From assembly GCA_024401215.1 (NCBI GenBank), contig JAKSLL010000016.1, positions 1-57,152 of the forward strand: DNA of 57,152 nucleotides, read 5' to 3'. The stretch comes from Bacteroidaceae bacterium (lineage in GTDB: Bacteria; Bacteroidota; Bacteroidia; Bacteroidales; Bacteroidaceae). Numbering within the stretch: position 1 is the first letter of the stretch; the number at the start of each line of letters is the position of its first letter. A program made the position numbers and the translations under genes. Shown here in pieces: positions 8,156 through 53,851 of the stretch. Below the pieces are notes generated by a model, which did not search any database, was not told the origin of the DNA, and saw only the letters and a program-made list of their open reading frames with translations.

Positions 8156-8216
8156 TAAGTAGGTTAAGAACACACCTACGAGGATGAACATATAAATAAT
8201 TTTGATTACCTACTTA
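8156..8216. repeat. TAAGTAGGT element, 61-bp deletion form
   Basis: This short copy has the termini TAAGTAGG and TACCTACTTA. Its right part (AAGAACACACCTACGAGG onward) matches the right end of the 188-bp copy at 33168-33355 and the 297-bp copy at 53555-53851. The centre is missing, so it looks like an internally deleted subfamily I element. It sits just upstream of the queD promoter. Confidence 0.7.
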
Positions 8217-23029: not shown

Positions 23030-23103
23030 TTTAGGTTAAATCTAAGTAGGTATTCGTAATTAATGTATGCCCCAAACGTGTGTTGAGGTGGATGGGGAGG
23101 CAA

Positions 23104-28334: not shown

Positions 28335-30536
28335 ATGATTGTTTGTATAGCAGAGAAACCGTCTGTGGCGCGAGACATTGCCAATGTGCTTGGCGCCACT
28401 CATGCTAAGCAGGGGTATATCGAAGGCAATGGCTATCAGGTCACATGGACATTTGGACATCTCTGTGAGTTGAAGCAGCCAGACGAATATAACGAAAGAT
28501 GGAAGCGTTGGGATATGTGGGATTTGCCCATGATACCAGCGCGCTTTGGCATTAGGCTGAAGGATGATGAGGGCGTGAAGAAGCAGTTCGCTGTTATAGA
28601 AAGTCTGATACAGACCGCTGACGGCATTATCAACTGCGGTGATGCCGGGCAGGAAGGAGAGCTTATCCAGCGATGGGTGATGCTGAAAGCAGGGGCGAAA
28701 TGCCCTGTGAAGCGTCTGTGGATTTCGTCGCTGACAGAAGAGGCTATTCGTGAGGGATTCAACAATCTGAAAGACCAGGATGAGTACCAGTCGCTCTATG
28801 AAGCAGGACTGTCTCGAGCTATTGGCGACTGGACTTTAGGCATGAACGCTACGAGGCTGTACACCCTCAAATATGGACAGAATAAGCAGGTGCTGTCTAT
28901 TGGACGCGTCCAGACACCTACACTTGCGCTTATTGTTAACAGGCAGAAAGAGATAGAAGAATTCGTGCCAAGACAAAGCTGGGTTCTGTCCACCATGTAC
29001 AGAGACACAAAATTCAATGCCATAGCTCACGATGAGGAAGCAGAAGCGGAGGCTGCAGCAGAGATGGCAGAGGCTGTGGCTCAAGGGAAGAATCCTAAAC
29101 CTAAAGGGCCTGTATTCAAACAGATAGAATATGCTACTGAAGAAGAAGGCGCGGCAGTTCTTGACGCTATCAAGGACAATCCTTTCACGGTGATAGACAT
29201 ACAGAAGAAAAGGGGCTCGGAAGCACCCCCTCGTCTTTATGACCTTACATCTTTGCAGGTTGACTGCAATAAGAAATTCGGATATAGCGCAGAACAGACA
29301 TTACAGCTGATACAGAGTCTTTACGAGAAGAAATACACTACATACCCTCGTGTTGACACCACATTCCTCTCTGATGATATTTACCCTAAATGCCCGCAGA
29401 TTCTTTCAGGAATAAGAGGTTACGAGCAGTTTATACAGCCTCTTGCTGGCAGGGCGTTGATAAAATCGAAAAAGGTGTTCGACTCATCTAAAGTGACTGA
29501 CCACCATGCGATTATCCCTACTGGAGTGCCTGCTGTAAGCTTGACAGACATGGAGCGACATGTGTATGACCTTGTGGCTCGCGCATTTATCGCCGTGTTC
29601 TATCCTGACTGTAAATTCGAGATGACGACGGTGTATGGCGAGGTGAAGAAGTCGGTTGCAGAAAGCAATGCTGATGAAACGGCAACCGTGCTTTTCCGCA
29701 CAAGCGGCCGAACGACTCTCGATGAAGGCTGGAAGGTTATATACAAGAAAGCTGCTGCGGATTCGGATGAAGAGAATAAGTCGGATGTTGATGGCTCTCT
29801 GCCATCCTTTGCCAAGGGTGAGTCGGGGCCTCATGTGCCTGCTCTGTCGGAGAAATGGACACAACCGCCAAAGCCATACACAGAAGCCACACTCTTGAGA
29901 GCGATGGAGACAGCAGGTAAATTTGTTGACAACGAGGAACTTCGCGACTTGATGAAGGAGAATGGCATCGGACGACCATCAACACGAGCTGCAATCATTC
30001 AAACGCTGTTCAAACGGCATTATATCCGCAAAGAGAGGAAGAATCTCTTTGCAACCCCAACAGGCGTTGAACTTATCGACACCATCCACGAGGAACTGCT
30101 CAAAAGCGCAGAACTCACGGGGCAATGGGAGAAGAAACTCCGTGATATTGAGAAACATACATTTAGTGCTGCTCAGTTTATAGCAGAGCTCAAGGAGATG
30201 GTGACAGATGTTGTGACTTCTGTGCGCAGCGACACGACAAACAGCAGAGTGACTGTTACTACGGAGGAGGATTTGAAGAGGCGCATGCCTCAGCCGTCAC
30301 CAGCAAACACGCCTGCAGGATTTCAGCCACGAAGGAAGCCAGCAAGGGCTAAGTCACAGCCAGCGACTCCGCAAAAGACAACAGCAGAGGTTAAGGCAGA
30401 GCATAATCCTGACGAGATAATCGGCATGCCTTGCCCAATCTGCAAACAAGGTAAGATAATAAAAGGAAATGCTGCGTACGGATGCTCGCGGTGGCGTGAG
30501 GGCTGTACATATAGATTGCCTTTCGATAAAGCATAA
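28335..30536 (+). CDS. topB: DNA topoisomerase III
   Basis: This 733-residue type IA enzyme has the TOPRIM start IVCIAEKPSVARDIANVLGA, the DAGQEGELIQRW acidic motif, the catalytic Tyr in YTTYPRVDTTFLSDD (about residue 330) and a C-terminal zinc-ribbon-like tail CPICKQGKIIKGNAAYGCSR. An Ala/Arg/Pro/Thr-rich linker (about 640-690) precedes it. Its stop codon TAA at 30534-30536 is made by the terminus of a TAAGTAGGT-type element. Confidence 0.94.
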   Translation: MIVCIAEKPSVARDIANVLGATHAKQGYIEGNGYQVTWTFGHLCELKQPDEYNERWKRWDMWDLPMIPARFGIRLKDDEGVKKQFAVIESLIQTADGIINCGDAGQEGELIQRWVMLKAGAKCPVKRLWISSLTEEAIREGFNNLKDQDEYQSLYEAGLSRAIGDWTLGMNATRLYTLKYGQNKQVLSIGRVQTPTLALIVNRQKEIEEFVPRQSWVLSTMYRDTKFNAIAHDEEAEAEAAAEMAEAVAQGKNPKPKGPVFKQIEYATEEEGAAVLDAIKDNPFTVIDIQKKRGSEAPPRLYDLTSLQVDCNKKFGYSAEQTLQLIQSLYEKKYTTYPRVDTTFLSDDIYPKCPQILSGIRGYEQFIQPLAGRALIKSKKVFDSSKVTDHHAIIPTGVPAVSLTDMERHVYDLVARAFIAVFYPDCKFEMTTVYGEVKKSVAESNADETATVLFRTSGRTTLDEGWKVIYKKAAADSDEENKSDVDGSLPSFAKGESGPHVPALSEKWTQPPKPYTEATLLRAMETAGKFVDNEELRDLMKENGIGRPSTRAAIIQTLFKRHYIRKERKNLFATPTGVELIDTIHEELLKSAELTGQWEKKLRDIEKHTFSAAQFIAELKEMVTDVVTSVRSDTTNSRVTVTTEEDLKRRMPQPSPANTPAGFQPRRKPARAKSQPATPQKTTAEVKAEHNPDEIIGMPCPICKQGKIIKGNAAYGCSRWREGCTYRLPFDKA

Positions 30537-30648
30537 GTAAGTATTCAAAATTATTTATATAAGTAGGCGGTTTCCGATATTTGATACGTCCTCTTTGAGA
30601 CTCAAATAGAACGCATCAAATATTTAAATAATTATGAACACCTACTTA
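30534..30648. repeat. TAAGTAGGT element, 115-bp subfamily II copy
   Basis: The ends are TAAGTAAGTATTCAAAATTA and AATTATGAACACCTACTTA. Compared with the reverse complement of 53120-53307 it lacks the central 73 bp, joined at CTTTGAG / CTCAAATAG. The left TIR overlaps the topB stop. No ORF was seen. Confidence 0.75.
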
Positions 30649-33167: not shown

Positions 33168-33355
33168 TAAGTAGGTGATCAAAATTAGTTTTATAATAGA
33201 TATACTCTATTTTGATGCAGATTACTATCTTCAGCTGAAGGAGCTATGCGGGCATAGTGACTGAGGATGAAGTAGTAAGGTGCGCAAAAGAGAGTATAGA
33301 TATTAAGAATACACATACGAGGATGAACATATAAATAATTTTGATTACCTACTTA
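33168..33355. repeat. TAAGTAGGT element, 188-bp subfamily I copy
   Basis: The ends are TAAGTAGGTGATCAAAATTA and TAATTTTGATTACCTACTTA, an imperfect inverted repeat. The centre has a hairpin CTATG-CGGG-CATAG. The reverse complement of 53555-53851 matches it apart from a 109-bp insertion in that copy. It lies between porE and the minus-strand methyltransferase. No protein is credible. Confidence 0.8.
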
Positions 33356-53047: not shown

Positions 53048-53119
53048 TGGCAGCTTTGGCTAATTACTCACATAGCGTGTTTTTTATACGTGGGTGCTCA
53101 AAAGAGTCATAGATGTTAA

Positions 53120-53307
53120 TAAGTAGGTGTTCATAATTATTTAAATATTTGATGCGTTCTATTTGAGCGCAGATTTTCGTTTTCATTTGAATGAGCAATG
53201 CGGGCATTGTGACTGAAAATGAAATGGAAAGATGCCTCAAAGAGGACGTATCAAATATCGAAAACGCCTACTTGTGTATTATATAAATAATTTTGAACAT
53301 CTACTTA
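53120..53307. repeat. TAAGTAGGT element, 188-bp subfamily II copy
   Basis: The ends are TAAGTAGGTGTTCATAATTA and TAATTTTGAACATCTACTTA. The centre has CAATG-CGGG-CATTG, the covarying counterpart of the CTATG-CGGG-CATAG hairpin in subfamily I. The 115-bp copy at 30534-30648 is its inverted, shortened relative. Confidence 0.8.
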
Positions 53308-53399
53308 ACACACCTACGGTAGATGATTCGTATGCTGATTAAAGAGGGAAGCACCTAATTGCTGTTGGGTGTTTTCCCTCTTTTTGTGCCAAAACTCGT

Positions 53400-53554: not shown

Positions 53555-53851
53555 TAAGTAGGTAATCAAAATTATTTATATGTTCAACCTCGTAGGTGTG
53601 TTCTTAATATCTATACTCTCTTTTGCGAAACACCCTTGCGCTTAGCGCCTTCTCGTTCGCTTTCATTCTTTGGCTCCGACAAGTCGAGCGCTGCGCCCCG
53701 AGTCTTCGAAATCGATATTTAATCGATTCCTTGCCTCGTCTTACTACTTCGTCCTCTGTCACTATGCCCGCATAGCTCCTTCAGATGAAGATAGTAATCT
53801 GCATCAAAATAGAGTATATCTATTATAAAACAAATATTGATCACCTACTTA
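53555..53851. repeat. TAAGTAGGT element, 297-bp subfamily I copy
   Basis: The reverse complement matches 33168-33355 on both sides of a 109-bp internal segment (about 53631-53740) that carries its own palindrome ATCGAT-ATTTA-ATCGAT and the word TTCGCTTTC. The TIRs are TAAGTAGGTAATCAAAATTA and ATTGATCACCTACTTA. It may be the fuller form of the element. Confidence 0.78.

Follow-up and report, generated by a model that had tools for sequence, protein, structure and literature searches.

A repeat family in Bacteroidales, most likely IS5-type MITEs that share a conserved folded core

Five short palindromic repeats lie between the genes of one contig of a Bacteroidaceae bacterium (assembly GCA_024401215.1, contig JAKSLL010000016.1), and they raise the question of what moves such gene-less sequences and whether their interiors matter. 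MITEs are usually viewed as dead IS elements with an unimportant interior. We analyzed the whole stretch of 57,152 nucleotides, here called the window, together with the genome that contains it and other Bacteroidales. The best explanation as a whole, and one that we hold to be probable, is a MITE family with IS5-type ends and a conserved folded core. That is, the elements are most likely IS5-type MITEs whose common folded core outlasts changes of the ends. MITEs themselves are known; what is new is a MITE superfamily with a conserved core between different ends.

Repeat copies and their mobility

An earlier note on this DNA had placed five copies with common inverted ends at the coordinates given for them in Table 1. 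We confirmed all five there, with paired ends and spans of 61-297 bp, and the ends occurred above chance: TAAGTAGGT was found 18 times in the window with at most one mismatch, against 6.67 expected, and 0 of 100 shuffles reached 18. One-mismatch ends bound the copy at 30534 on its left (TAAGTAAGT) and the copy at 53120 on its right (TAAGTAGAT). The copies are short and lack a transposase gene, as MITEs do, and the reported absence of such a gene from the window held up in a Pfam scan, which showed no transposase domain in the 44 ORFs scanned of 97 mechanical ORFs of at least 100 aa. The five had also been called intact, which is true of those at 33168, 53120 and 53555 and not of those at 8156 and 30534, whose core is largely or entirely deleted. 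Subfamilies I and II, thought to be unlike in most of their inner sequence, instead align end to end with ~71% identity. The element at 33168 forms an end-to-end hairpin of -70.0 kcal/mol on the + strand and -51.4 kcal/mol on the - strand; the element at 30534 is still a hairpin despite its core deletion (-44.0 kcal/mol on the - strand).

Table 1. Repeat elements in the window and their parts. R2 is a covariance model of the core alone, described below.
Feature	Coordinates	Strand	Details
Subfamily-I remnant without core	8156..8216	+	61 bp
Solitary end TAAGTAGGTATTCGTAATTA, probably a relic	23043..23062	+	End pattern
Subfamily-II element, most of core deleted	30534..30648	-	115 bp; R2 only at E=0.13
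Full-length subfamily-I element	33168..33355	+	188 bp; ends TAAGTAGGT...ACCTACTTA
Conserved folded core of the 33168 copy	33197..33298	+	R2 match 105.8 bits (copy among the sequences used to build R2)
Subfamily-I relic, left part (split by the 53120 insertion)	53093..53119	+	Joined-flank alignment
Full-length subfamily-II element	53120..53307	+	188 bp; sits within a decayed subfamily-I copy
Conserved folded core of the 53120 copy (subfamily II)	53149..53250	+	R2 match 96.3 bits (copy among the sequences used to build R2)
Subfamily-I relic, right part (split by the 53120 insertion)	53308..53318	+	Joined-flank alignment
Subfamily-I element with extra inner module	53555..53851	-	297 bp; module ~53628-53739
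Conserved folded core of the 53555 copy, module adjoining	53720..53822	-	R2 match 64.4 bits

The genome containing the window (G000) comprises 4.35 Mb in 234 contigs and is 93.55% complete, with 7.04% contamination. Searching it for the ends, as had been proposed beforehand, gave 74 forward and 73 reverse matches to the 20-base end TAAGTAGGTNNTCANAATTA with at most one mismatch; the reversed control gave 0 and 0. Full-length matches to subfamily I numbered 19 (89-100% identity), eight of them identical, namely the window copy at 33168 and those at seven further sites; subfamily II had three full-length copies (97-100% identity). Numerous partial copies were present besides. The 188-bp element had blastn matches in 3 of 61 genomes (G000 and, among 60 relatives, G022 and G030), and single end-pattern matches occurred in relatives G003, G007 and G015. 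A scan of genome contigs for the end matched at least 87 stretches, and those listed included the isolate Prevotellamassilia timonensis, Candidatus Minthosoma caballi, Marseilla massiliensis, and various gut and rumen assemblies. Element sizes gathered at 183-191 bp across several genera; sizes such as 200 and 221 bp were outliers. Several contigs terminated at or within element copies, which calls for caution in genome assembly.

Three copies were nested within other copies (L033, L066 and the window copy at 53120). We joined the flanks at each nested site and compared just two options, keeping one TA or none. Alignment scores were higher with one TA at L033 (136 vs 125), L066 (121 vs 110) and 53120 (41 vs 35); the duplication was clear at the first two sites and weaker at 53120, where the host copy is decayed. 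Because the joined flanks aligned better with one TA, we concluded that the target is TA and that it is duplicated. Apart from TA, A+T richness was the only feature that the flanks of 89 elements showed. The repeats are non-autonomous mobile elements, that is, MITEs with many dispersed copies and target duplication. The earlier proposal of MITE-like repeats moved by an outside enzyme stood as regards mobility, on copy number, near-identical dispersed copies, fixed ends and nested TA duplication; as regards the enzyme, we propose that a transposase supplied from elsewhere would recognize the ~20-bp inverted ends and insert the element at TA.

Some copies carry additional sequence. The ~110-base inner module of the 53555 copy recurs in L020, L021, L022, L024, L026, L027 and L063, and it takes the place of one and the same short stretch in several subfamily-I copies. 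A second module of ~80 bases lies near the loop in L023, L026 and L027 (subfamily I) and in L034 (subfamily II). Because this module is nearly identical by eye in subfamilies that are only ~71% alike, the two seem to have exchanged it. TAAGTAGGT-like ends also surround quite different inner hairpins of ~200-335 bp (L066, L076, L201, L207, L077), which are further kinds of cargo for such ends.

Structure and covariation of the core

The inner ~100 bases form a hairpin whose long stem contains G-A mismatches and is topped by a short capped hairpin. The alignment comprised 23 representatives of less than 93% identity, chosen among 67 elements of 165-200 bp after L063 and L068 had been dropped; L005 replaced L001. 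RNAalifold on these 23 elements gave 50 pairs, 28 of them with double changes. In the 49 pairs counted, 28 again with double changes, 94.6% of cells were paired, compared with 81.4% in shuffled alignments, and the covariation score was 0.383, compared with 0.154. On none of five measures did any of 500 shuffles score as high, and pairing fell to 39-48% when the partner was slid by 1-3 columns. Of the 19 pairs in the end helix, 13 were invariant and so uninformative on covariation. The idea that only the ends matter and the inside drifts therefore found no support, as the interior is a folded core that has been conserved and is also found between other ends. We propose that every full copy would carry one such ~100-base core, selected on one strand.

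Long near-perfect hairpins invite template-switch correction, by which replication would copy one arm onto the other and produce a fold without use. Consistent with this, a double change segregates within P. timonensis (columns 49-116, with TA in 4 of the 13 copies and CG in the other 9). However, correction should not leave G-U far above A-C on one strand, and in the inner stems of the 23 elements the ratio of G-U cells to A-C mispairs was 70:9. The 13 P. timonensis copies gave 103:11 over 75 pairs; by our own count, one-sided changes off an ordinary pair in this species led 17 times to G-U and 5 times to A-C (15 and 4 when the small 3' hairpin is left out). Correction should also erase mismatches, yet at columns 70, 71, 74, 75, 94, 95, 98 and 99 the base was fixed in 20 to 23 of the 23 sequences. 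These eight positions would form two steps of tandem G-A mismatches that surround two ordinary pairs, and the ordinary pairs between the steps, like the stem above, covary. Core length and most motifs, moreover, hold across genera. The G-U excess and the fixed G-A positions argue against arms that merely copy each other, and point to one strand, either RNA or single-stranded DNA. We consider palindrome correction unlikely.

Selection on one strand might instead serve the host, with the core acting as a useful RNA part (an attenuator, or an mRNA-stability or processing hairpin) and mobility merely past. The strand-biased covariation fits this explanation, and so does the finding that 0 of 89 elements of at least 150 bp, from several genomes, lay inside an ORF according to a crude ORF caller. 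Both orientations were found among the elements, which upholds the earlier description of copies lying either way round between genes. Relative to the genes, 28 elements were co-directional, 22 were opposite, 20 lay between divergent or convergent genes, and 19 were left unassigned. Because this shows no orientation bias to neighboring genes (28 vs 22), the core is less likely to act in mRNAs on behalf of the host. In the genus, just three of the genomes searched had blastn matches, and identical, hence recent, copies occupy different sites, which also speaks against a part kept for the host. On balance a host-useful RNA seems to us rather improbable.

We favor a core that works for the element, and helping the element persist or spread is, we infer, its most likely job. 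The folded strand, whether RNA or single-stranded DNA, would aid that persistence or spread. As RNA, the core might insulate the element from transcription entering from outside; alternatively, the folded strand might bring the element ends together.

Two other roles were considered. Two frames of the core were partly protein-like, but a protein-coding core was rejected, as no frame is conserved (frames open in 2, 2 and 4 of 20 sequences). An intrinsic terminator is not favored, since no T-run was seen by eye 3' of the hairpin. The Rfam 15 covariance models gave no match above the gathering score in the window. When six loci were searched at E<=1, one of six matches overlapped an element; this was mir-5014 on L022 909-1016, which overlaps a subfamily-II copy. 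It scored 28.3 bits, far below the gathering score of 101, and is taken as chance.

The core between other ends across Bacteroidales

We searched the order with R2, which was built from 20 of the 23 sequences (L111, L117 and L126 omitted), at E<=0.001 and with ten candidates scored per genome. R2 matched 25 of 393 Bacteroidales genomes, G000 among the 25, in 18 of 207 genera. A simple search with no chance control found inverted ends scoring at least 10 of 20 at 22 of 28 core loci inspected. Most ends at the order-wide core loci were unlike TAAGTAGGT, for example GAGCCTGTTTAAATTT, GAAACTGTTTTGAATT, GGAAGTGATTTAAAC and GGTTCTAAAAATT; the end at L298, ATAAGTAACTGTTCAAAATT, was close to it. The ends of 46 of the 78 core matches were checked, and 39 had recognised ends while 7 did not. 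Identical three bases flanked both sides in 32 of these 39 elements and not in the other 7; the flanks were TTA or TAA, and once TCA/TCA. Because flanks are common to L303/L310, L304/L311 and L276/L312, the independent events number fewer than 32.

The fold itself was retained. All 31 pairs had double changes among the 78 matches (68 distinct), and the covariation score was 0.645, compared with 0.186 in shuffled alignments and at most 0.146 when slid. Double-change cells numbered 511, compared with 140.5 shuffled and at most 140 in slid versions, in an alignment that was fitted to R2 and so favours its pairing. The order-wide ratio of G-U to A-C was 177:65, with 216 other mispairs, and the G-A motif was not universal, being missing by eye from cores of the G262 type. 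In P. timonensis the core lay within TAAGTAGGT elements and also, at L153 4695, between different ends as judged by eye; thus, even in a single genome the core is not bound to one set of ends.

The same core between different ends in other Bacteroidales indicates a module kept by MITEs, one that would have been associated over time with more than one set of ends. Retention of the fold between differing outer ends suggests a function for the folded strand. A bolder reading, which we offer tentatively, would make the core a new order-wide structured RNA or folded strand, a module of its own that spreads by lodging between the ends of different IS5-type elements, swaps ends over time, and is selected for the action of the strand on behalf of the element and not for its sequence. 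The element interior seems to be the most durable part, since the fold persists where the ends differ, and it offers a case in which selection on the body of an element without genes can be tested. In Prevotellamassilia, Minthosoma, Marseilla and other gut bacteria it is also likely to represent a new family of RNAs or DNA hairpins.

At 12 loci in two genomes (L329-L333, L280, L337, L338, L341-L344) a core on the + strand was followed by one on the - strand at most 500 bp away, and at the six printed loci of this kind (L280, L329, L332, L333, L337, L338) one end pair encloses both cores. Two inward-facing cores would suit shielding from both sides. Neighboring cores in one direction, seen as pairs in L107 and L139 and as three in a G251 locus, do not suit two-sided shielding. 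We rejected inward core pairs as a general part of IS elements, given that they occur in only two genomes, that cores elsewhere face the same direction, and that there are IS5 loci without a core.

Among the viral contigs scanned, the core motif occurred in 3 stretches, other ends occurred in 8, 1 and 0 stretches, and the TAAGTAGGT end occurred in 0. Contigs classed as viral match the core at L362, L363, L364, L366 and L373, and phages or prophages may therefore ferry it. Searches of plasmids and phages, for which the window element or one of its relatives served as query, found no match.

Candidate transposases and known systems

Two of the other groups have IS5-type ends. The Bacteroides fragilis plasmid CP103159.1 encodes an IS5-family transposase (Pfam PF01609, DDE_Tnp_1; PF13340, DUF4096; PF13586, DDE_Tnp_1_2) that lies between GAAACTGTTTTGAATT and GAAGCTGTTTTGATTT with TTA on both sides, and the right end GAAGCTGTTTTGATTT differs from the left end at 2 of 16 bases. 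The MITEs of G301 end in GAAACTGTTTTGAATT, as does this element. At L369 an IS5-type C-terminus runs into an GAGCCTGTTTAAATTTT end; as read from the DNA by eye, it has 51% identity over 35 aa to the CP103159.1 transposase, and two IS5 queries against 12 viral-contig loci, L369 among them, matched nothing. Two decayed relatives on plasmids (L374, L375) are arranged much as L369, and L337 and L280 hold IS5 transposase remnants between two cores. An autonomous partner was thus seen for relatives with GAAACTG and GAGCCTG ends, and CP103159.1, L369 and L337/L280 together link the three-base-duplication groups to IS5-family enzymes. No core match at E<=10 was present in the IS5 loci L369, L374, L375 and L376, nor in L370; L369 shows ~100 element bases.

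For the TAAGTAGGT group a link to IS5 is suggested by the shared core and the similar ends, and an IS5-type transposase would act on these elements in trans. Because this group duplicates TA and the others three bases, the enzymes may differ. IS5-family elements make target duplications of 2-4 bases. We found no autonomous element carrying TAAGTAGGT ends among the bearers searched, where draft assemblies lose repeats; neither the end patterns in P. timonensis (among the matches listed), G302 and G262 nor 34 ends in 33 loci read inward revealed one. Neither in G302, a complete genome, nor in G262 did ends paired at IS spacing flank an IS5 gene; G302 has one + and one - end 1.9 kb apart, but the second of these is part of a short element, and L314 gave no match to IS5. 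DDE_Tnp_1 was matched in all four genomes searched, at no point between the listed element ends, and small element copies lay near three such loci (L252, L257, L267). These DDE_Tnp_1 matches showed no resemblance at E<=0.01 to the CP103159.1 protein. DDE_Tnp_1_2 was over the cut-off in 0 of 10 bearers, with one weak match in G000 (E=3.1e-4). The L251-L267 region of P. timonensis contains a different multi-copy IS, partly tandem, with a DDE_Tnp_1 gene and ends ACCCGTTGGCGGAATTAATTTA, of which L254 1075-2105 is an example.

The TA duplication also brings to mind a MITE of the IS630/Tc1 type. ERIC and Correia elements are intergenic palindromes of Proteobacteria; they use TA as insertion site and their transcripts fold, and our elements can be likened to them by description, not by sequence. 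Together with RUP, such TA-inserted bacterial repeats are often linked to the IS630/Tc1 family. However, DDE_3 was over the cut-off in 0 of 10 bearers, with one weak fragment in G000 (E=0.0036) and with drafts that may lack repeats, and relatives that share the core show duplications of three bases together with ends of the IS5 type. An IS630/Tc1 origin appears to us the least probable of the alternatives.

A RAYT-like gene, which the earlier note had proposed to look for, would belong to a system of the REPIN/RAYT type, in which folded single strands with GTAG near their ends are moved by a Y1 (HUH) transposase. Here GTAG is present in the ends and the fold is strand-specific, and at L233 1480-1690 a fragment of a decayed Y1 transposase is flanked by a full element on one side and a solitary end on the other. 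Of the Y1 loci inspected, however, L233 was the only one with an end within two mismatches. Y1_Tnp matches were also independent of the element, occurring in 20 of 30 genomes (13 over the cut-off), bearers and non-bearers alike, and not in the bearer G062. TA or three-base duplications are not expected of Y1 enzymes. REPINs with RAYTs are likewise hairpin mobile units with compensatory changes, but in the part of PMC3116915 available they are tied to a single-copy Y1 gene with repeats beside it, whereas none was tied to TAAGTAGGT ends at the loci checked. A RAYT-like enzyme gains no support, and we deem a REPIN/RAYT-type system very unlikely.

IS5-type MITEs, the reading that we prefer, have counterparts nearby. 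Porphyromonas gingivalis belongs to the same order as the window bacterium. Its MITE239, MITE293, MITE700, MITEPgRS/464 and BrickBuilt are IS5-related MITEs, with ends that resemble those of the IS5-family elements ISPg1, ISPg3, ISPg4 and ISPg9 (PMC4596501). They are likewise gene-less repeats with IS5-like ends; however, their listed ends are unlike TAAGTAGGT by eye, and the available part of PMC4596501 describes no conserved folded core, in a comparison by ends and description and not by full sequences. The literature searched, with few subscription papers and preprints and in part as excerpts, held no description of TAAGTAGGT ends or of the core, and the excerpt of PMC5771137 held nothing on MITE structure. 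ERIC and Correia elements are named in the review PMC10969869.

More distant systems share single traits with the family. MITECca01 of Cardinium is likewise a high-copy element found mostly between genes and in mobile elements, but it derives from ISCca4 of the IS982 family, and no fold is described in the part of PMC9769881 available. The pneumococcal BOX, RUP and SPRITE repeats are likewise short and may affect co-transcribed genes; the ends of BOX and RUP are paired in a tight fold, and BOX is modular (PMC3049150). In contrast to our elements they are streptococcal, and the accessible text of PMC3049150 describes no covarying core between different ends. Lastly, at L126 7408-7467 and 7490-7564 of P. 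timonensis, both on the - strand, a SAM-II riboswitch match (60.4 bits) adjoins a tRNA.
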